From: a virus
DNA: 25,702 bases
Virus record (IMG/VR): IMGVR_UViG_3300048444_000020
Location: 1 to 25,702 of that record
Strand: one strand, 5' to 3'
In this document: positions 1,036 through 11,594 of the stretch, piece after piece
How positions within the stretch are numbered: position 1 is the stretch's first letter
How the letters are laid out: each line of letters starts with the position of its first letter
Program-made: the position numbers and the translations under genes
The notes under the pieces: generated by a model
Seen by the model: the letters and a program-made list of their open reading frames with translations, nothing else
What the model was told of the DNA's origin: nothing
Database searches by the model: none

Positions 1036-1563
1036 ATGGCAATATTAGGCGTAGATGATTTTAAATCAAAACTCCGTGGTGGCGGTGCTCGTCCCAATCT
1101 CTTCAAGGCAACATTGAACTTTCCTGCTTACGCTGGTGGTGATGTAGAACTATCATCATTCTTGTGTAAGACGGCAGCTCTACCAGTATCAGAAATGGCA
1201 CTGGTAACTGTACCGTTCCGTGGTCGTCAATTGAAGATTGCAGGCGATCGTACCTTTGCAAACTGGACTGTAACCATTATCAATGATACTGATTTCAGTG
1301 TACGTGATGCTATGGAACGTTGGATGAACGGTATTAATGCACATAGTGCTAATACTGGTTTAAACAACCCTGTAGATTACGAAGCAGATCTTTCTGTTGA
1401 TCAATTAGATCGTAACGGAGATGTATTGAAAACATACAACTTCCGTGGATGTTTCCCAACTAACATTGGTGAAATTGCGTTGTCTTACGAGACTAACGAT
1501 GCGATCGAAGAGTTCACAGTAGAATTTGCTATCCAGTACTGGGAGTCAAATACTACTAGTTAA
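1036..1563 (+). CDS. 19: Tail tube protein gp19
   Basis: This 175-aa protein is close to the length of T4 gp19 (about 163 aa). It polymerises into the inner tail tube through which DNA passes. It shows the tube-protein pattern: an N-terminal GGGARPNLFKATLNFP, a VPFRGRQLKIAGDRTFANW strand pair near residues 58-77, the helix with RDAMERWMNGIN near 90-101, and a C-terminal beta strand FTVEFAIQYW. The ribosome binding site AAGGAG lies 8 bases before ATG 1036. It sits directly after gp18 and is followed by a strong hairpin terminator. A second protein with the same fold signature is encoded at 10460-10951. Confidence 0.95.
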   Translation: MAILGVDDFKSKLRGGGARPNLFKATLNFPAYAGGDVELSSFLCKTAALPVSEMALVTVPFRGRQLKIAGDRTFANWTVTIINDTDFSVRDAMERWMNGINAHSANTGLNNPVDYEADLSVDQLDRNGDVLKTYNFRGCFPTNIGEIALSYETNDAIEEFTVEFAIQYWESNTTS

Positions 1564-1580
1564 TTCTAGTATACATATGA

Positions 1581-1613
1581 GTGGTAAGGGCGATTATGCC
1601 CTTACCACTTTAT
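1581..1613 (+). terminator. Rho-independent terminator after gene 19
   Basis: A perfect 11-bp stem (1581-1591 with 1598-1608, GTGGTAAGGGC paired with GCCCTTACCAC) has a 6-base loop and is followed by TTTATT. It lies between genes 19 and 20 and probably reduces read-through from the tail genes into the portal gene. Confidence 0.85.
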
Positions 1614-1631
1614 TATAAAAGGTTCTATTAT

Positions 1632-3131
1632 ATGGCAGAAGACAACAACGGATTGAAACTCTTTGGTTTTGAAATCAAAAGAGCATCAAATAAACCCAAA
1701 GAAAAACTTCCATCTATTGTTCCAACGGCTGATCCCGATGGAGCTGGATACGTTACTGCCTCTGGTTCACACTTTGGTTCATATATTGATATGGACGGTG
1801 CGGACGCTAAAGATAATACCCAACAAATTCAAAAGTATAGGGGTGTTGCACAACATCCTGAAGTCGATGCAGCTATCGAAGATATCATCAATGAGTCTGT
1901 CTCTGGTTCCCAAATGGAAGCACCAGTCGAACTCGATCTCGATAACGTAAAAGCATCTGACAAAATCAAAAAGACCATCGTTGAAGAGTTTGACCAAGTA
2001 TGTTCAATGTTGAACTTCAGTGAATTAGGTCACGATATTTTCCGTTCATGGTATGTAGATGGTAGAATCTATCACCACTTAGTCGTGAACGAATCGAACA
2101 TGAAGGCAGGTATCCAAGAGATCCGTCCTATCGATGCAGCTAAGATGCGTAAAGTTCGAGAAGTTAAGTATAAGAAAGATCCTGTAACAAGTGCGAAGAT
2201 CGTAGATAAGGTAGATGAGTTTTATATCTACCAAGAAAAAGCAGGACAACAGTCTGGTGTTAAACTAAGTCCAGACTCAGTATCGTATGTTACGTCTGGT
2301 TTACTTGATCCGTCTAGGAAACGTGTAGTATCGTTCCTACATAAAGCGATCAAACCTATCAACCAGTTACGTATGATGGAAGATTCACTAGTAATCTACC
2401 GTCTTGCACGTGCGCCTGAAAGACGTATATTCTATATCGATGTAGGTAACTTGCCTCCACAAAAGGCAGAGAAACACATGAAAGACATCATGTCTCGTTA
2501 TAGAAACAAGTTGGTCTATGATGCGAACACTGGTCAATTAAAAGATGACCGCAAACATATGTCTATGTTGGAAGACTTCTGGTTACCTCGTAAAGAAGGT
2601 GGCCGAGGTACAGAGATCTCTACTCTGCCTGGCGGTGAGAATCTTGGACAGATTGATGATATCGTCTACTTCCAGAAGAGATTGTATCGTTCATTGAACG
2701 TACCTCTATCACGTCTAGAACAAGAGGCACAGTTCTCTCTAGGTCGTGCAACAGAGATCAACAGAGACGAAGTTAAGTTCCAGAAGTTTATTGATCGTTT
2801 AAGAAAACGTTTCTCTAACTTGTTCTTGAACATCCTAAAGAAACAATTAGTATTGAAGGGTGTATGTACCGAACAAGATTGGGAAACATGGAAAAACGAT
2901 ATAACCGTTGACTACATAAAAGACAACCACTTCTCAGAACTTAAAGAAGCAGAAGTACTCAGAGAACGTTTACAGACTATGGATCAAGTATCTCAGTATG
3001 TCGGTGAATACTTCTCTAAAGAGTGGGTATGGAAAAATGTATTACAAATGCAAGAAGACGAAGTTGAGAATATTCTGAAACAGATCGCAATTGAATCTAA
3101 TGCAGAGACAGGTAATGAAGATGAATTTTAA
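1632..3131 (+). CDS. 20: Portal vertex protein gp20
   Basis: This 499-aa protein is the dodecameric portal that nucleates prohead assembly and carries the packaging motor and neck. Gp20 signatures are visible: YRGVAQHPEVDAAIEDIINE near residue 45, RRIFYIDVGNLPPQKAEKHM about midway, the stretch TEISTLPGGENLGQIDDI, and NVPLSRLEQE followed by FSLGRATEINRDEVKFQKFI. The frame extends upstream to a GTG at 1581, but that codon is the first base of a terminator stem. ATG 1632, preceded by AAAAGG at 9 bases, is chosen instead and matches the family length. It is followed 15 bases later by the gp67 homologue. Confidence 0.96.
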   Translation: MAEDNNGLKLFGFEIKRASNKPKEKLPSIVPTADPDGAGYVTASGSHFGSYIDMDGADAKDNTQQIQKYRGVAQHPEVDAAIEDIINESVSGSQMEAPVELDLDNVKASDKIKKTIVEEFDQVCSMLNFSELGHDIFRSWYVDGRIYHHLVVNESNMKAGIQEIRPIDAAKMRKVREVKYKKDPVTSAKIVDKVDEFYIYQEKAGQQSGVKLSPDSVSYVTSGLLDPSRKRVVSFLHKAIKPINQLRMMEDSLVIYRLARAPERRIFYIDVGNLPPQKAEKHMKDIMSRYRNKLVYDANTGQLKDDRKHMSMLEDFWLPRKEGGRGTEISTLPGGENLGQIDDIVYFQKRLYRSLNVPLSRLEQEAQFSLGRATEINRDEVKFQKFIDRLRKRFSNLFLNILKKQLVLKGVCTEQDWETWKNDITVDYIKDNHFSELKEAEVLRERLQTMDQVSQYVGEYFSKEWVWKNVLQMQEDEVENILKQIAIESNAETGNEDEF

Positions 3132-3146
3132 TATAGGAGTAAAATA

Positions 3147-3521
3147 ATGAGTGAAGTAGAAAATGCAGTGGATGTTGAAACACCACCAGAACCAACTCAA
3201 ATGGAACTGAATCTAAGCAATTTTGTTGATGCGATTCAGGCATCGAACTTTAATAATGCATCTGATCTATTCAATGATATGTTGAGTAGTAAAGTTGATG
3301 ATGCAATTGAAGCGGAGAAAGTATCCGTTGCAAACAACATGTTCAACGGTGGGGAACCATCTGAAGAAGAAGTTGAAGAGTTCTCATTCGATGAAGCTGA
3401 GACAGAAGAAGTCGAAGATGGCGAAGAAGACGGTTTTGAGAACGCAGAAGCGGTAGAAGACCACGATGACGTGGAATATCAGACCGAAGAAGAACCAGAA
3501 GTCGAAGAAGACTTAGATTAA
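3147..3521 (+). CDS. 67: Prohead core protein gp67-like
   Basis: This small acidic protein (124 aa; T4 gp67 is 80 aa) belongs to the prohead scaffold core and is normally degraded by the gp21 protease. The region around residues 22-70 follows the T4 gp67 pattern: a short helix with DAIQASNFNNASDLFNDM, then DDAIEAEKVSVANNMFNGGE. It then becomes almost entirely Glu/Asp to the C-terminus. The position between 20 and the 68/21 pair is the T4 order. It has the ribosome binding site AGGAG before ATG 3147. It is longer than the T4 protein because of an extended acidic tail. Confidence 0.88.
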   Translation: MSEVENAVDVETPPEPTQMELNLSNFVDAIQASNFNNASDLFNDMLSSKVDDAIEAEKVSVANNMFNGGEPSEEEVEEFSFDEAETEEVEDGEEDGFENAEAVEDHDDVEYQTEEEPEVEEDLD

Positions 3522-3544
3522 TTCATTATAAAAAACTTCATTTG

Positions 3545-3552
3545 TATAAATA
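3545..3552 (+). promoter_or_regulatory. T4-type late promoter (TATAAATA) for 68-21-22-23
   Basis: An exact match to the T4 late -10 element TATAAATA lies in the 58-base gap after gene 67. No TTGACA-like -35 sits 17 bases upstream, as expected for a gp55-dependent late promoter. The expected start near 3558 would drive the prohead protease, scaffold and major capsid genes. Confidence 0.85.
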
Positions 3553-3579
3553 AATGTACGTAAAAGGAAAATACTTGTA

Positions 3580-3810
3580 GTGAAAACATTTAAACAGATC
3601 CGAGAAAAAAAGTCGTCCAAGTATAAGGGGAAACCTGTGTACTCGGCAAAGACTACTGGATCTATAAAGGTTCCTGTGGTAATAGTAAAGGAACCTAAAG
3701 GTTACTGTGTTTACATAGACGGTGACAAATTAGATGTATTCAAAACAGAATCAGAGGCAATGAAGACTCTGAAGACAACAGTTAAATCACTAGGTGGTAA
3801 ACTCAAATGA
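3580..3810 (+). CDS. 68: Putative prohead core protein gp68-like (short)
   Basis: This 76-aa basic protein begins with GTG 3580, preceded by AAAAGGA. It lies between gp67 and gp21, exactly where T4 has gene 68 (141 aa). The call rests mainly on position, small size and the N-terminal MKTFKQIREKKS, because little clear sequence identity is visible. The second half (VVIVKEPKGYCVYIDGDKLD) looks like a compact beta-rich module followed by a helix. Its stop overlaps the start of gene 21 (ATGA), so the two are probably translationally coupled. It could instead be an unrelated small gene that has replaced 68. Confidence 0.6.
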   Translation: MKTFKQIREKKSSKYKGKPVYSAKTTGSIKVPVVIVKEPKGYCVYIDGDKLDVFKTESEAMKTLKTTVKSLGGKLK

Positions 3811-4466
3811 AGTTAATAAGTGAATTTAGAGAAAACGATCTTCAGTGTATCGTTGAGAAGAAAGAAGATGGCGAGAAGAATTACGTCATTGAAGGAATCT
3901 TCATACAAACAGAATCAAAGAACAGAAATGGACGTGTATACCCAAAACCTATTATGGAAAAGGCAGTGGGTACATATGTCGATCAACAAGTTTCTAAGAA
4001 ACGTGCGGTAGGGGAATTAAATCACCCCGAAGGGCCGACCGTTAACTTAGACAAGGTTTCGCACCTTATCACGGATCTCAGATTTGAGGGAAATGATGTG
4101 GTCGGAAAGGCACAAATATTGGATACTCCAATGGGTAAGATTGTTAAAGGTCTCCTTGATGGTGGTGTACAATTGGGTGTGTCAACTCGTGGTATGGGAA
4201 GTCTGGAACAAAGAAATGGCGCTATGTACGTCAAAGACGACTTTATTCTTAGTACGGTAGATATCGTACAAGATCCATCTGCACCAGATGCTTTCGTCAA
4301 TGGAATTATGGAAGGTGTAGATTGGGTTTGGAATAACGGCATTTTGGAACCTCAGATTATTGAAGATATAGAGACTGAAATTAAAACCGCACCGAAAGCG
4401 TTTCGTCCAGAAGTGCAAATTCGTGAGTTTAAAAATTTCCTCTCGTTAATCAAATCTAGTATATAA
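3807..4466 (+). CDS. 21: Prohead maturation protease gp21
   Basis: This 219-aa serine protease of the T4 prohead protease family cleaves scaffold and capsid proteins inside the prohead and then degrades itself. Family hallmarks are the NRNGRVYPKPIMEKAV segment (39-54), the catalytic histidine H73 in GELNHPEGP, and the catalytic serine S126 in LGVSTRGMGSL. DPSAPDAF follows near residue 156. The start codon overlaps the previous stop (ATGA). Neighbours are its expected substrates: gp67, gp68, gp22 and gp23. Confidence 0.95.
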   Translation: MKLISEFRENDLQCIVEKKEDGEKNYVIEGIFIQTESKNRNGRVYPKPIMEKAVGTYVDQQVSKKRAVGELNHPEGPTVNLDKVSHLITDLRFEGNDVVGKAQILDTPMGKIVKGLLDGGVQLGVSTRGMGSLEQRNGAMYVKDDFILSTVDIVQDPSAPDAFVNGIMEGVDWVWNNGILEPQIIEDIETEIKTAPKAFRPEVQIREFKNFLSLIKSSI

Positions 4467-5542: not shown

Positions 5543-6862
5543 ATGCAACAATCTTACGATCAATTAATCGAAAAGTGGTCACCAGTACTTAACGAAAGTT
5601 CTGCTGGTGAAATTAAAGATCACCACCGTAAAGCGGTAACTGCTGCTATTCTTGAGAACCAAGAAAAAGCAATGGCAGAAGCCCGTCAAGCTGAATCTGG
5701 ATTTATGACAGAAGCAGCTCCTGCTGGTGCTAACACAGGTTCAATCGGTACATGGGATCCAGTTTTGATCTCACTAGTTCGCCGTGCGATGCCTAATCTA
5801 ATCGCATACGATGTATGTGGTGTACAACCTATGAACGGCCCAACTGGTCTCATCTTTGCGATGAAATCACGTTACGGTGCTGGTTCAACTTCATCACGTG
5901 AAGCTCTGTTCAACGAAGCAGAAACTAACTTCTCTGGTGTAGGTACTCATGACTCAGATAACGTATCTGGTTTCAACGGAATCGCCCCTGCTGGTGACTC
6001 TGCTGATGCACTACGTGCTGGTGGAGCAGGAACAGGTGATACTACTGCCAATATGGAAGCATATGGTTCAAGTGGTGGAGCTGCGTTCGAAGAAATGGGA
6101 TTCACCATTGAGAAGCAAACTGTAACTGCAAAGTCACGTGCTCTTAAAGCTGAATACTCACTAGAACTTGCTCAAGACCTTAAAGCAATCCACGGTCTTG
6201 ACGCTGAAACTGAACTTGCGAATATTCTTTCAACTGAGATCCTTGCGGAAATCAACCGTGAAGTTATTCGTACAATCAATACTCAAGCGAAAACTGGTTG
6301 TCTACAAGCTAACGTTACTAAGAATGGTATCTTTAACTTGTCTTCAGACGCTGACGGACGTTGGAGTGCTGAGAAGTTCAAAGGTCTAGTAGTACAGATC
6401 GACCGTGAATGTAATGTCATTGCTAAAGAAACAAGACGTGGAAAAGGTAACGTAGTTATCTGTTCTTCTGACGTTGCTACTGCATTGTCTGCTTCAGGTA
6501 TGCTTGACTACTCACCTGCTATGTCAACTCAATTGCAAGTTGATGACACTGGTAATACTTTTGCTGGTACTTTAGGTGGACGTATTAAAGTATACATCGA
6601 TCCATATGCACAAACTGACTACATCACAGTAGGTTATAAGGGTACTAACACTTATGACTCTGGTGTATTCTACTGCCCATATGTACCGTTACAAATGGTT
6701 AAAGCAGTTGGTGAAGATACTTTCCAACCAAAAATCGGTTTCAAAACTCGATATGGTATGGCAAGTAACCCATACGTGGGTTCAACACCTACTGACGGTT
6801 TGGCTGCTGCTAAATCTAACCAGTACTACCGTATCTTCCGTGTGGACAACATCCTCACATAA
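5543..6862 (+). CDS. 23: Major capsid protein gp23
   Basis: This 439-aa HK97-fold protein is the main shell protein of T4-like heads. Signatures include WDPVLISLVRRAMPNLIAYD near residue 70, VCGVQPMNGPTGLIFAMKSR, EMGFTIEKQTVTAKSRALKA, and near the C-terminus FKTRYGMASNPY. An N-terminal delta region precedes a likely gp21 cleavage site (hydrophobic-x-Glu), predicted after E57 in FMTE/AAP. Mature protein would be about 382 aa. It starts with ATG 5543 after TAAGGAA. No gene 24 vertex protein follows it, unlike T4. A very strong terminator lies 41 bases after the stop. Confidence 0.97.
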   Translation: MQQSYDQLIEKWSPVLNESSAGEIKDHHRKAVTAAILENQEKAMAEARQAESGFMTEAAPAGANTGSIGTWDPVLISLVRRAMPNLIAYDVCGVQPMNGPTGLIFAMKSRYGAGSTSSREALFNEAETNFSGVGTHDSDNVSGFNGIAPAGDSADALRAGGAGTGDTTANMEAYGSSGGAAFEEMGFTIEKQTVTAKSRALKAEYSLELAQDLKAIHGLDAETELANILSTEILAEINREVIRTINTQAKTGCLQANVTKNGIFNLSSDADGRWSAEKFKGLVVQIDRECNVIAKETRRGKGNVVICSSDVATALSASGMLDYSPAMSTQLQVDDTGNTFAGTLGGRIKVYIDPYAQTDYITVGYKGTNTYDSGVFYCPYVPLQMVKAVGEDTFQPKIGFKTRYGMASNPYVGSTPTDGLAAAKSNQYYRIFRVDNILT

Positions 6863-7330: not shown

Positions 7331-7353
7331 AAAAAAACCCCACCGAAGTGGGG
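7331..7353 (-). terminator. Terminator of the tRNA-Gly unit
   Basis: Read on the minus strand, the stem CCCCAC pairs with GTGGGG over a TTCG loop and is followed by seven T. It lies 16 bases beyond the encoded CCA end of the tRNA. There is no T-run on the plus strand, so it acts for the minus strand only. Confidence 0.92.
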
Positions 7354-7369
7354 CGAGAGAGATTTAATT

Positions 7370-7441
7370 TGGAGCGGAGCAGAGGACTTGAACCTCCATC
7401 TTTAGGTTGGACACCTAACGTAATCGTTATACCAACTCCGC
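7370..7441 (-). tRNA. tRNA-Gly, anticodon UCC (atypical loop)
   Basis: This is a 72-base cloverleaf. The 7-bp acceptor stem is GCGGAGT/GCTCCGC (last pair T-G), with discriminator T and an encoded CCA at 7370-7372. The perfect 5-bp anticodon stem is TTAGG/CCTAA around loop TGTCCAA, giving anticodon TCC. The T arm is GGAGG/CCTCT with loop TTCAAGT. The acceptor end, discriminator and anticodon resemble the tRNA-Gly(UCC) of E. coli and T4. Two oddities stand out: base 33 is G where U is nearly universal, and the D arm is short (GTA/TAC, loop TAACGAT) without the usual GG. It is transcribed alone from its own promoter to its own terminator. It may be a variant working tRNA, or one that is decaying or reused. 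Confidence 0.88.
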
Positions 7442-7454
7442 ATAATATGTATAT

Positions 7455-7484
7455 ATTATACCATAAATCTTAGGTCAATGTCAA
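7455..7484 (-). promoter_or_regulatory. sigma70 promoter of tRNA-Gly
   Basis: On the minus strand, TTGACA (7484-7479), an 18-base spacer and TATAAT (7460-7455) are preceded by TGG (extended -10). The expected start is about 7 bases before the tRNA 5' end. The stop codon TGA (7483-7481) of the ParB-like gene lies inside the -35 box. Confidence 0.85.
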
Positions 7485-8455
7485 GCGATTTTTACTAATT
7501 CTTTTAAGTTTTCTTTACCACGTACTTGCGGAAGGAAACCTAGAACACGCAGTGGGAAAACGTCTAGTCCACATGCTTGAAGATCTGACTTGTGTTGATC
7601 CAACATTTTAAGGAACTTCTTTCTTTTAATATCTATAGTTGCCTTTGCAGTCGGAGATCCAACGTGTCCGATTAGATCTGTATATTTACCTGTTTCCACG
7701 TAACGTGTAATAGCTTGCATGATAACACGATACTGGTAACCTTCACCAATACACGCACCGTAAGTATCAGTCGTTTCATTATATTCACCACCAAGAGTGT
7801 ATTCTGTAGAAGAATGATTCTCGATCCAGTCCTGTACTTTAGGTATGGACGTGTATAGGATATATGGTTGAGGAGTTCCTGCCTCTTCCATAACCATTTT
7901 TACTACACGGTTTCTACAAGTCTTATCTCTGGTTTTACCATAGATTCTTATGAACTCATCGTTGATTGCTTTCTCATTGTTCTTGATACGACCAGTAGAT
8001 ACTTTTCGACTCAAGTGTTTACGCATGTCAACTTCTTTATTGAGATGTTTGGGATATCCCTCGTTCTCTCTTGCTTGTACATCTTCCATCTGTTCTGGTG
8101 TACCAGCGAACAAAGTAAAGATCCAGTCCTTTTGTCCCAAAGCACGAATTGCCTCAGATCTACCGTAACCATATACAAGAACATAAGGTTTGTCGTATTC
8201 ATCACCACGGAAGTAAACAGCTGGGGGACATTCTTGATTATCCACACCATCTGCGAAAGACATTCGCAACTGTTCGATTTCAGCGGGAGTGTGAGTTTCT
8301 ACCTTACCAATGTTACCTTCGATATCATCAATGTGAATCAGATCAAAAGATAGTTTGGTATTTTTTACGGATGTTACACCAAGATCGGTGTAGTCGGGTA
8401 ACGCAACAGCGTCACAGTTTGAATTGGCATAATCTGCCAGTGCTATAATAGCCAT
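7481..8455 (-). CDS. ParB/sulfiredoxin-fold domain protein
   Basis: This 324-aa protein carries an N-terminal ParB-like nuclease-fold domain (about 35-145). LIHIDDIEGN begins the domain, and EIEQLRMSFADG and the phosphate-binding-type motif GYGRSEAIRALG (96-107) follow. Next come ENEGYPKHLNKEVDMRKHL, equivalent to the ParB EN-x-R-L-P box. In the motif the usual GxRR becomes GYGR. The C-terminal half is unrecognised, helix-rich and basic. Phage ParB-fold proteins include DNA nucleases, CTP-dependent switches and regulators, and which applies here cannot be told. AGGAG on the minus strand precedes the ATG. It is followed by the tRNA gene and preceded in the same direction by the DruA-like gene. 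Confidence 0.75.
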   Translation of the reverse strand: MAIIALADYANSNCDAVALPDYTDLGVTSVKNTKLSFDLIHIDDIEGNIGKVETHTPAEIEQLRMSFADGVDNQECPPAVYFRGDEYDKPYVLVYGYGRSEAIRALGQKDWIFTLFAGTPEQMEDVQARENEGYPKHLNKEVDMRKHLSRKVSTGRIKNNEKAINDEFIRIYGKTRDKTCRNRVVKMVMEEAGTPQPYILYTSIPKVQDWIENHSSTEYTLGGEYNETTDTYGACIGEGYQYRVIMQAITRYVETGKYTDLIGHVGSPTAKATIDIKRKKFLKMLDQHKSDLQACGLDVFPLRVLGFLPQVRGKENLKELVKIA

Positions 8456-8522
8456 ATGATTTCTCCTATTGGATTAAATTAAGTGAAGTATAAGACTCAA
8501 TGAGAATTATAAAACACAGTAT

Positions 8523-8553
8523 TATTTATAAGATTTCTATCTTATAATGTCAA
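8523..8553 (-). promoter_or_regulatory. Composite sigma70/late promoter for the ParB-like gene
   Basis: On the minus strand, TTGACA (8553-8548), exactly 17 bases, then TATAAATA (8530-8523). The first six bases (TATAAA) serve as a sigma70 -10 and the full octamer is an exact T4 late box. The expected start near 8517 gives a leader of about 60 bases. The -35 lies inside the end of the DruA-like gene. Confidence 0.75.
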
Positions 8554-9667
8554 TATCGTCTGCATTTACATTCCATGTTTCCACGGTACGTCTCAGACGA
8601 CCTTCGCTCTTGAGTTTGTCATAACGTTTGACGGCATTCTTACGCCACCATTCGGTAACACCTTCAAGAGAAAATCTGTCGAAGTTTTCCTTCTTAATTA
8701 ATGTATCAGTTTCTAGGTTTAGATACTGCGGTACATTTTCATAACCGTATGTTGATACGAACGAACGTTTCTGTTCGGTCAGATCCTTTGCATCTGAGAA
8801 AGTTTGACAGAACTTCTTATAGGCAACTTCATCATGTACCTTGAGAGAGGCTTTGATGATAGATGCCATCTTGGTTTGAGTCTTTAGTTTACGAGATGAG
8901 GCGTCAACTGGAACCAAGGGTTCACCACCATTTTTCTCAATGAACCATGCACTTAGTCTGCGGAAAGTGTCGTCATTGATAAGTGGTAAGAAGTTTGAGT
9001 CTGTCAAACCATTGAATCGCAAGAATGGTTTCATACCATCGTATTGCGAAGCAGACTTAGTTGAACCATATAATGATGTAGTCTCGAACATACAGAAGTT
9101 ACTGTTGTACTTCTTGTTCAATGCTTCACGTGTATAATGGGAACAACAAATTGCGGCCAGTAATTTACCACCAAGATAGTTGAAACCAAACGGTTGAGTA
9201 GGTACAATGTTGAACCCCATGATTGCGGAGTCATTGAACCTTTTCATAATGTCTGGATTCATACTGTCTAGCGGTTTTCCTAACCATTCGTTTCTGGGTT
9301 TACTATTAATAGTAGGGGAACCGAAACGAATCATACCAATTACTTTGTTGGTATTCTTTTCTTTAATTACCCACTTCAGTCCCTTGCCTGGGATTGATGC
9401 TTCCACTGGTGCGGATGTGACAATCTCCATATAGGACATGAATTGTTGTGCGGGCGATTCTGCGATTACGAACTCCATCTCCGAAGGATGTATATCGAAA
9501 TCACTGAACAAGTCTTCTTCAGGGCCCATGCCTGGCAGAGAGTACGGAAAGGATTCCATACGTTCCATCTTGACTTGTCTCATGTATTCATCGATGCGTT
9601 CTATGTTTCCAAAGAACTCATCAAAAGCGTTTGCACCATACAGTGCATCTTTGTGACTTAAAATCAT
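8537..9667 (-). CDS. DruA/DUF4338-like protein of unknown role
   Basis: This is a 376-aa protein. Residues ~98-225 show a motif order recalled from the DUF4338 family (which includes DruA of the Druantia anti-phage system). That order is IGMIRFGSP (110-118), then KPRNEWLGKP (123-132), then GFNIVPTQPFGFNYLGGKLL (151-170). FETTSLYGSTKSASQYDGMK (194-213) follows. The DruA equivalents have G-x-x-GF, an R-x-WIGW box, an N-x-RF-x-I-x-P box with an L-A-S/G-x-x-L helix, and an L-E-T-F box. The N-terminal ~95 residues are acidic and unrecognised. The C-terminal ~150 residues are helical and end in a charged WWRKNAVKRYD segment. GAGG is 8 bases before the start on the minus strand. Family membership is a motif-level inference and function is unknown. 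Confidence 0.6.
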   Translation of the reverse strand: MILSHKDALYGANAFDEFFGNIERIDEYMRQVKMERMESFPYSLPGMGPEEDLFSDFDIHPSEMEFVIAESPAQQFMSYMEIVTSAPVEASIPGKGLKWVIKEKNTNKVIGMIRFGSPTINSKPRNEWLGKPLDSMNPDIMKRFNDSAIMGFNIVPTQPFGFNYLGGKLLAAICCSHYTREALNKKYNSNFCMFETTSLYGSTKSASQYDGMKPFLRFNGLTDSNFLPLINDDTFRRLSAWFIEKNGGEPLVPVDASSRKLKTQTKMASIIKASLKVHDEVAYKKFCQTFSDAKDLTEQKRSFVSTYGYENVPQYLNLETDTLIKKENFDRFSLEGVTEWWRKNAVKRYDKLKSEGRLRRTVETWNVNADDIDIIR

Positions 9668-9693
9668 TTATAATACCTCATCATCTGTTACAC

Positions 9694-9722
9694 ATTATAC
9701 AGTATGTAGCAAAGTTTGTCAA
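9694..9722 (-). promoter_or_regulatory. sigma70 promoter for the DruA-like gene
   Basis: On the minus strand, TTGACA (9722-9717), 17 bases and TATAAT (9699-9694): a perfect consensus. The expected start near 9687 leaves a ~20-base leader containing GAGG. The TGA stop of the upstream dioxygenase-like gene (9721-9719) is inside the -35. Confidence 0.9.
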
Positions 9723-10414
9723 GTAATTTTTAATCGGTCTTGAGAATGATGTCCGTTGTATGTAGGTGGGTGGTTGTCGGTAGTAATATATTCCCACGCA
9801 ACACTATATCTAAATCGATCACTGGTGTTCCGATAACAACTGTGAATCAACTGGGGGTGAAATAGTATGGCAAAGGGTTCATCTAGTTCAATGTCTATTA
9901 CTTCTTTCCAATGTTTATCTGATATCCATTCGAATACACCGTGAGAATCTAATTCGTGAGATATTAGTTCGTGTTGAGAATTAGGTATAATCCGTAGACA
10001 CCCATTCTCTCTTGTTGCACCTTGAACAAACACATCGCAACTGATCATCTTATTTGGATCTGCCTTTATGTAATAATTGTCTTGATGCCAATCTACAGAG
10101 AATCCTTTACGTGGTATCATGGGGAAGAACTTAGAGATATATGTCTCTATATTGGGCCCTATCAGTTCCCTTGCATACTTAACCAAAGTCTCATTTCTGC
10201 CAAGTCTAAATAGTTTACCAGATAACGACATCGCACAATCAAGTTTACATGGATTGTTCGGGTAGTTCATAACCCAATACTGATCGGGAGTTTCCATACC
10301 AATGTGGGCAAGATTATGACACTCTTCCAACAACTCATCGTACTCCGATTCGTTGAGAAAGTCGGTAACTATGACATAACCGCATTCATGGAATTTTTTA
10401 ATATCTCTGTTCAT
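9719..10414 (-). CDS. Phytanoyl-CoA dioxygenase-like 2OG-Fe(II) oxygenase
   Basis: This 231-aa protein has the PhyH family layout. It begins with the typical FHECGYVIVTDFLNESEYD (8-26). The iron ligands are H110 and D112 in VDWHQDNYY, with a distal histidine at H191 in FHPQLIHSCYRN. An arginine downstream in SDRFRYSV is the likely 2-oxoglutarate binder. The full catalytic set is therefore present. The substrate is unknown; marine phage members may modify proteins, nucleic acids or small metabolites. No Shine-Dalgarno sequence is visible before ATG 10414, and a GATAAATA box ends only 6 bases upstream. It is the first gene of the minus-strand block. Confidence 0.85.
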   Translation of the reverse strand: MNRDIKKFHECGYVIVTDFLNESEYDELLEECHNLAHIGMETPDQYWVMNYPNNPCKLDCAMSLSGKLFRLGRNETLVKYARELIGPNIETYISKFFPMIPRKGFSVDWHQDNYYIKADPNKMISCDVFVQGATRENGCLRIIPNSQHELISHELDSHGVFEWISDKHWKEVIDIELDEPFAILFHPQLIHSCYRNTSDRFRYSVAWEYITTDNHPPTYNGHHSQDRLKIT

Positions 10415-10420
10415 GCGAGT

Positions 10421-10428
10421 TATTTATC
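10421..10428 (-). promoter_or_regulatory. Variant late promoter (GATAAATA) for the dioxygenase-like gene
   Basis: Seven of eight bases match TATAAATA on the minus strand. With normal late spacing the transcript would begin at or within a base or two of ATG 10414. It lies back to back with the plus-strand late box at 10430-10437. Confidence 0.5.
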
Positions 10429-10459: not shown

Positions 10460-10951
10460 ATGGCAGAACTAACTACTAACAAAAACTACTTGCAACCTAC
10501 TGGATTTCGTGTTATAATAAGTAGGCAAAATTACCCAAACCTTGAGTACTTTGCACAAGGAGTAAACCACCCTGGCTCTACAGTTTCTCCATTGGAACTG
10601 GGAACACCAAGGATTACTTCTATCCCTTTAGCGGGAGATAAGATTACATACGGTAGTCTTACTATGGATATCATACTTGACGAAAACATGGTATCATATA
10701 AAGAGATGCAAGGTTGGTTAGAGAATACGTTGAACTTAAATCAGACATCTAATTCAGATGCGGAGTTCAATCCATATCGTGACATTACTGTCAGTATCCT
10801 ATCCAGTCATAACAATGCGAATACGCAGATACTATATAAGGACTGTATACCAACAAATATTAGTTCTATAGCGTTGACTGCCAATACGTCTACCGTATCG
10901 TTTTTAACCTTTAATGTGGAGTTTAGATTTTCGTCTTTTGAATTGAGATAA
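10460..10951 (+). CDS. Second tail-tube-fold protein (gp19-like paralogue)
   Basis: This 163-aa protein shares the gp19 pattern. IPLAGDKITYGSLTMDIILD here aligns with LKIAGDRTFANWTVTIINDT of gp19. The following helix YKEMQGWLENTLN aligns with VRDAMERWMNGIN, and both end in a beta strand of type F-x-V-E-F. Overall identity by eye is low. In T4 the tube-fold paralogues gp54 and gp48 sit at the baseplate-tube junction but are longer. This protein is closer in size to gp19 itself. It may be an alternative tube subunit, a tube-initiating ring or a tail-tip component. It has its own late promoter and ribosome binding site and lies far from gene 19. Confidence 0.75.
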   Translation: MAELTTNKNYLQPTGFRVIISRQNYPNLEYFAQGVNHPGSTVSPLELGTPRITSIPLAGDKITYGSLTMDIILDENMVSYKEMQGWLENTLNLNQTSNSDAEFNPYRDITVSILSSHNNANTQILYKDCIPTNISSIALTANTSTVSFLTFNVEFRFSSFELR

Positions 10952-10952
10952 T

Positions 10953-11594
10953 ATGCATTTTATTGAATTGAAGAATCCAAGGGTTCTTGATATATTAGAA
11001 AGGTTTCGTTATTTGTATCGTGATAAATATGACATCACCGAAACCAACCTACCTCTGTCTGACTTACTTGGGCATGGGGAAGAATACGTATCAGATGAAT
11101 ACCTAAGAGAAGTTTTGAAGATGGGGGAGAATCATGATGGTTCACCTAGAGCCGCCTTCTCATATCCAATAAAACCAGATCACTATCGTGGTACTGACAC
11201 TCAGTACAAAAAAGATTATAATGGTGTTGATCAGGATATGCGACTAGAAGTCGGATTCAAAGAATCCGCATTAACTCAACTGTATCCGCCTCAAGGTTTT
11301 ATTGACTGGCACAATAACGCTAACTCTTCGACATATAATATTTTATTTACGTGGAGTGAAACTGGTGATGGTTGGTTCAAGTGGTATGATAAAGAGAACA
11401 ACAAGGTAGTGACTATGCCCGATAAAAAGGGGTGGAGTGCGAAAGCAGGATACTTTGGTAATTATGGTGACGGTGATCTATGTTACCATAGTGCATACAC
11501 TGATTGTTGGAGAATGACAATGGCATATGTAGTACCCAATGATGCGAAAGAATATTGGGAACAAATGTGCGACTATATACAATGTGAGGATTAA
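10953..11594 (+). CDS. 2OG-oxygenase-like (double-stranded beta-helix) protein with HxN
   Basis: This 213-aa protein has a region (105-195) that reads like a 2-oxoglutarate/iron oxygenase core: LYPPQGFIDWHNNANSS, then YNILFTWSETGDGWFKWYD, then AGYFGN. LCYHSAYTDCWRMTMAYVV closes the core. H120, H179 and R187 fit the two histidine ligands and the co-substrate arginine. The usual aspartate two residues after the first histidine is N122. Similar WHNNAN proteins are, from memory, common in marine T4-like phages, so the asparagine may be characteristic of the family. The start is one base after the tail-tube-like stop, suggesting coupling. Catalytic activity is uncertain. Confidence 0.6.
   Translation: MHFIELKNPRVLDILERFRYLYRDKYDITETNLPLSDLLGHGEEYVSDEYLREVLKMGENHDGSPRAAFSYPIKPDHYRGTDTQYKKDYNGVDQDMRLEVGFKESALTQLYPPQGFIDWHNNANSSTYNILFTWSETGDGWFKWYDKENNKVVTMPDKKGWSAKAGYFGNYGDGDLCYHSAYTDCWRMTMAYVVPNDAKEYWEQMCDYIQCED
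11194..11222 (+). promoter_or_regulatory. Candidate internal sigma70 promoter upstream of uvsY
   Basis: CTGACA (11194-11199), 17 bases, TATAAT (11217-11222), inside the oxygenase-like coding region and about 380 bases before uvsY. It would explain early expression of uvsY, the glutaredoxin and uvsW, which otherwise lie behind a late promoter. Confidence 0.45.

Follow-up and report, generated by a model that had tools for sequence, protein, structure and literature searches.

The viral record IMGVR_UViG_3300048444_000020 derives from an uncultured T4-like virus of a marine phage group and represents a genome fragment; positions 1–25,702 of this single record (25.7 kb) are the window analysed here. 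Between its genes for the major head protein and the tail tube lies a minus-strand block encoding a tRNA-Gly, a ParB-superfamily protein (ParB_A), a DruA-like protein and a PhyH-family 2-oxoglutarate (2OG) oxygenase (Table 1). A preliminary description of the DNA had given this layout, and open reading frame (ORF), tRNA, Pfam and PHROG matches confirmed it. The block genes are intact in many independent contigs at 70–100% identity, far above chance. Our subject is the DruA-like gene, the exchangeable gene behind it and the tRNA-Gly.

The DruA-like and ParB-fold proteins of the block

The DruA-like protein (376 aa) matches the DruA family PF14236 with 43.9 bits, against a family cut-off of 27, and with 43.7 bits in a six-frame search, so that the DruA similarity proposed earlier was found by profile search. 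The PF14236 match spans only profile positions 50–180 of 297; the protein matches phrog_19197 over its full length. At least 600 stretches in viral contigs match it, and its distribution among marine T4-like phages is wide; some phages carry two different DUF4338 genes (in tandem at 1457–3997 of locus L112; at 86386 and 99793 in HTVC008M). Its predicted structure (alignment of 63 sequences; mean predicted local distance difference test score, pLDDT, 88.9) has the GNAT fold, the domain type to which DUF4338 is annotated (PMC10853773). Among solved structures it matches Mom of phage Mu best (8bv8; Z 9.4 over 174 residues at 4.1 Å), and the GNAT toxins AtaT2, TacT and GmvT are also among the fold matches. 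The annotation of one cyanophage relative reads 'methylcarbamoylase mom'. A PDB sequence search with the DruA-like profile found nothing.

ParB_A has the ParB fold that the preliminary description had assigned to it, despite lacking a Pfam match at E ≤ 1. The model comprises a ParB CTPase-like domain (~31–139), helix-turn-helix (HTH)-like helices (~141–195) and a C-terminus of unknown fold; the domain aligns with M. xanthus ParB over 90 residues at 26% identity (Z score in Table 1), and the sequence holds the ParB-like boxes GYGRSEA and ENEGYPKRLN. The PF02195 ParB profile gave only sub-threshold matches across whole phages, and a PDB sequence search with the ParB_A profile found nothing.

Each gene had been described as having its own promoter. 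This holds for the DruA-like gene and the tRNA-Gly and, with one mismatch, for ParB_A; upstream of the PhyH gene there is no good promoter, the best site having four mismatches to a sigma70-type consensus. Relatives with as little as ~70% identity keep the DruA promoter ~30 bp 5' of the gene. Host-sigma70 promoters mean early expression in T4 terms and, judged from its sequence, the DruA-like promoter has the form of such an early promoter, though it lies inside a late-gene region. The ParB_A promoter-like site also contains TATAAATA, the T4 late-promoter motif.

The PhyH gene, which had been counted with the block, adjoins the DruA-like gene in the window's sublineage only; most DruA loci have no PhyH alongside, and it was rejected as a member of the conserved unit. 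On the other side of the tail tube gene, at 10953–11594, lies a gene for a 213-aa protein that matches nothing in Pfam or PHROG and reads like a 2OG-Fe oxygenase; relatives carry diverged versions in its place.

Table 1. Positions, strand and supporting evidence for the block and the genes that flank it
Feature	Position	Strand	Evidence
Major head protein	5543–6862		phrog_138, E=2e-161
tRNA-Gly(UCC), cassette end	7370–7441	−	tRNA search; Rfam tRNA 45.3 bits; D-loop without the G18-G19 pair
tRNA-Gly promoter	7455–7484	−	TTGACA-18-TATAAT, sigma70 consensus, 0 mismatches
ParB_A, ParB-superfamily partner, 324 aa	7481–8455	−	Predicted structure, ParB domain Z 10.8
ParB_A promoter-like site	8525–8553	−	TTGACA-17-TATAAA, 1 mismatch
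DruA-like protein of GNAT fold (PF14236/DUF4338), 376 aa, a proposed acyltransferase of DNA or other nucleic acid	8537–9667	−	Pfam, PHROG and predicted structure
DruA-like promoter	9694–9722	−	TTGACA-17-TATAAT, sigma70 consensus, 0 mismatches
PhyH-family 2OG oxygenase, 231 aa	9719–10414	−	Pfam PhyH, E=1e-21
Tail tube gene	10460–10951		phrog_45, E=1e-30

An exchangeable slot behind the DruA-like gene

The position 3' of DruA is filled, within the clade of the window, by ParB_A, ParB_B, ParB_C, ParB_D, DUF262-HNH, an HNH+HTH gene or a restriction endonuclease (REase)-like gene. Several of these labels were assigned mostly through weak matches: ParB_B and ParB_D through weak ParB PHROG matches, ParB_C through a motif, and DUF262-HNH through weak GmrSD_N/HNH matches. 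Across a 109-protein DruA tree the identity of the following gene switches 25 times, and in one sublineage near-identical DruA genes precede ParB_A, ParB_B and DUF262-HNH (L063, L014, L011). By profile-profile comparison ParB_A and ParB_B have an hhalign probability of 0.2%, from shallow alignments, and a PDB sequence search with the ParB_B profile gave only weak, unrelated matches.

The association also appears from the partner's side, and the co-occurrence of DruA with ParB-type genes in other phages proved to be widespread. When ParB_B loci were found independently, DruA lay directly upstream in 10 of 11; for DUF262-HNH (n = 10) it lay directly upstream in five and within 1.2 kb in four, the remaining locus being cut off. 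Exceptions are ParB_A genes without an adjoining DruA in L059/L060 and Mosig, and a ParB_B gene likewise in L092.

A rival account takes the slot for a place where selfish genes, homing-type or mobile, insert themselves; its occupants would be passengers making use of a constant site beside a tRNA, while the DruA-like protein works alone. Partners swap fast between near-identical DruA genes; among the alleles, a small HNH+HTH protein resembles free-standing homing endonucleases; the DruA stop codon delimits the slot on one side, as tRNA-Gly does on the other in many loci; and the DruA-like gene is partnerless in many phages. Most alleles nonetheless share one theme, the ParB/DUF262 superfamily, which is not expected of random passengers. 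The pairing of DruA with ParB_A also survives divergence and a changed genome position, for in L178 DruA, a 44% identical ParB_A and tRNA-Gly are kept together beside gp44, and ParB_B- or DUF262-HNH-like genes sometimes occur elsewhere in the genomes of DruA-carrying cyanophages. We regard a simple landing site as somewhat unlikely.

Two features of the slot deserve description. In L018 a gene for a 170-aa protein (1847–2359) overlaps the DruA stop codon and bears a weak resemblance to type II restriction enzymes; visual reading of a motif, together with a weak REase_II match in PADLOC (E=0.008), makes a PD-(D/E)xK nuclease possible. Leader palindromes are conserved before ParB_A as well as ParB_B and are candidate operators only; the one leading ParB_B in L007, L014 and L088, GGCATTC-ATACC-GAATGTC with one base different in L088, is possibly an operator or an RNA hairpin.

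Position in other phages and the linked tRNA-Gly

In cultured cyanophages the DruA-like gene lies between the clamp-loader genes gp44 and gp62 (S-SSM7, S-T4, S-CREM1, S-SCSM2R, S-8S53, S-CAM9, Sf-CH8, S-SM2, S-SRM01, DSL-LC02, S-PRM1 and SynMITS9220M01); in S-B68 and HTVC008M it occupies other genome positions, in HTVC008M beside gp43. Most relatives have a Dam methylase in this slot (Syn1, S-H9-2, S-PM2, S-RIM8, P-SSM4, P-SSM2, S-SKS1, S-RIM2 and S-WAM1 among them), and relatives of the slot Dam were found in 422 phage records. A Dam-family gene occurs in one of 16 DruA-carrying phage records, there at another genome position; DruA occurs in none of ten Dam-carrying records, which were picked for Dam, so that only the absence of DruA is informative. 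In S-RIM2 (L186, 3839–5757) a ParB_B-like gene is followed 9 bp on by a second Dam methylase; ParB-type partners thus also accompany methylases.

These positions bear on a plainer account, in which the block is unlinked accessory cargo: the DruA-like protein would modify a phage or host protein such as a replisome subunit, ParB would be a regulator and the tRNA would serve codon usage. Protein acetylation is common among GNATs, and the DruA-like gene has replisome genes around it in cyanophages and gp43 beside it in HTVC008M. Against this stand the adjacency and the promoter position, both conserved across independent contexts, and the exchange with Dam, which points to a DNA substrate; we consider the account unlikely.

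A tRNA-Gly lies within 1.5 kb of DruA in 9 of 41 representatives, and no other tRNA lies near DruA in any of them. Its placement varies: it precedes DruA by 5 bp in L121 and by 62 bp in L018, follows it by 6 bp in L124, and stands behind the partner in others. The genomes G001 (144 kb) and HTVC008M (147 kb) have no tRNA besides tRNA-Gly; in G005 and S-SM2 tRNA-Gly is found in clusters far from DruA. The D-loop GG (G18-G19) is missing in 13 of 27 distinct tRNA-Gly copies and in none of 38 control tRNAs from related phage genomes, which also keep T55; because the tRNA-Gly sequences are related, the independent losses of GG are fewer than 13. Some copies also lack T55 of the T-loop, while acceptor and T stems are fully paired. 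Odd DruA-linked copies are found in the window, L001, L007, L072, L124 and HTVC008M (L243, 11140–11213). In the window's copy the EF-Tu pairs are G-U at 49-65, of the strong type, and A-U at 51-63, of the weak type. In L132, L135, L137 and L018 the tRNA-Gly upstream of DruA has an unusual anticodon, ACC.

Two functional readings of this link may be considered. In one, the DruA-like protein and the elbow-less tRNA-Gly form a functional pair, either with glycyl-tRNA(Gly) as donor of a glycyl or related group to DNA, or with Gly-tRNA itself acted on and the phage tRNA as dedicated partner; we hold this to be improbable, and if true the pair would modify nucleic acid through a link to a tRNA, for which no described system offers a parallel. 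In the other, the DruA-like protein would act on Gly-tRNA(Gly) as TacT and AtaT2 toxins do, stopping host translation, with the altered-elbow phage tRNA as a resistant replacement. The restriction of the linkage to tRNA-Gly and the missing GG fit such a role, as do the toxins among the fold matches, and AtaT acetylates Gly-tRNA(Gly) (PMC7595197). A toxin would leave the Dam-slot occupancy and the ParB/nuclease partners unexplained, many DruA phages have no linked tRNA-Gly, and the DruA-like protein is much larger than GNAT toxins; this reading appears very unlikely. Of the module's elements, the link to the tRNA is explained least and is potentially the most novel.

Proposed function and relation to known systems

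Our favoured reading, also the most economical, to which we give a probability of about 45%, is that the DruA-like protein is an early-expressed, DNA-modifying GNAT acyltransferase with an exchangeable ParB/nuclease partner on the same substrate, in an arrangement like restriction-modification. The DruA-like protein would acylate phage DNA early, replacing or resembling Dam functionally and in kind like Mu Mom. The gene behind it would be a swappable accessory acting on that substrate, here a putative ParB-fold NTPase/DNA-binding protein and in sister phages DUF262-HNH, HNH or another nuclease. The DruA-like protein would mark self DNA, and the partner would attack, or regulate access to, unmarked host or competitor DNA. 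This reading builds on the GNAT and ParB folds, the consensus early-type promoter, the conserved adjacency, the repeated exchange of partners and the occupancy of the Dam slot; from them we infer the DNA substrate, the acyl mark, nuclease activity of partners and a purpose in protection or exclusion, anti-host or inter-phage. The preliminary description had offered an inter-phage exclusion module, a counter-defence device or a DNA-processing pair as possibilities; a pair that processes DNA, employed for exclusion or counter-defence, was a fair guess in view of a GNAT in the cyanophage Dam slot and a slot for ParB/nuclease partners.

Several observations weigh against this reading. Mom is tied with ordinary GNATs in the structure search (SpeG, Z 9.3), hhalign gives the DruA-like and Mom profiles a probability of 0.2% from shallow alignments, with no sequence-profile similarity, and the invariant N-Y-L-G-G-K motif places Gly, as aligned by eye, at the position of Mom Ser124. 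ParB_A shows no nuclease domain, and a ParB/nuclease-type partner is missing for many DruA-like genes beyond the clade of the window. The data do not support repeated, independent substitution of DruA for Dam: in the gp44–gp62 slot one modification enzyme is replaced by another, but few independent times, because ~2 changes on the gp44 tree, possibly a single event, suffice. The substrate could instead be tRNA or protein.

DruA/DUF4338, known mainly from the Druantia anti-phage system, gains a testable function because its cyanophage position is the slot of an adenine methylase. For marine T4-like phages, a site of ParB/nuclease exchange behind a constant enzyme amounts to a naturally occurring experiment on conflict among phages and between phages and their hosts, and the linked odd tRNA-Gly makes a glycyl-tRNA role directly testable in cultured phages.

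The link to Druantia drawn in the preliminary description comes down to one shared domain. The DruA-like protein has the same PF14236/DUF4338 GNAT domain as Druantia DruA, above the family cut-off. Druantia is a bacterial defence operon, whereas the DruA-like gene is a phage core or accessory gene, with head, tail and replication genes as its neighbours in relatives. Druantia has a DruE-type YprA helicase and companion genes in its operon; the window, a fragment, has no helicase-sized gene, its largest ORF being 574 aa (no helicase-profile search was made). Membership in a Druantia system is not supported beyond the shared domain.

Phage Mu Mom, which carries out adenine methylcarbamoylation, is likewise a phage-borne GNAT-fold protein and the best solved structural match, although profile similarity is undetectable and its Ser124 is apparently replaced by Gly. 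Jumbo phages have Mom fused to a nuclease (PMC7824862), the same combination of DNA-acylating GNAT and nuclease as proposed here; in the present case the genes are separate, partners are of the ParB superfamily and rapidly exchanged, and a tRNA-Gly is linked. ParB-like DpdB works with DpdA (PMC12839542), and phage ParB domains are fused to DNA methyltransferases (PMC12704722). The DpdA/DpdB and DndB systems, like our proposal, set a ParB-fold protein alongside a DNA-modification enzyme, but there modification is by a transglycosylase or the Dnd machinery and here it would be by a GNAT. The non-proteinogenic tRNA-Gly of S. aureus, associated with FemXAB, has G18-G19 replaced (PMC4052509), as have many of the DruA-linked copies; in contrast, the context here is a phage, the window's 49-65 pair is a strong G-U, and the acyltransferase is linked by gene position only. 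Taken together, the DruA-like protein, its swappable partner and the odd tRNA-Gly have the appearance of a phage module not described before, and not that of a Druantia copy.

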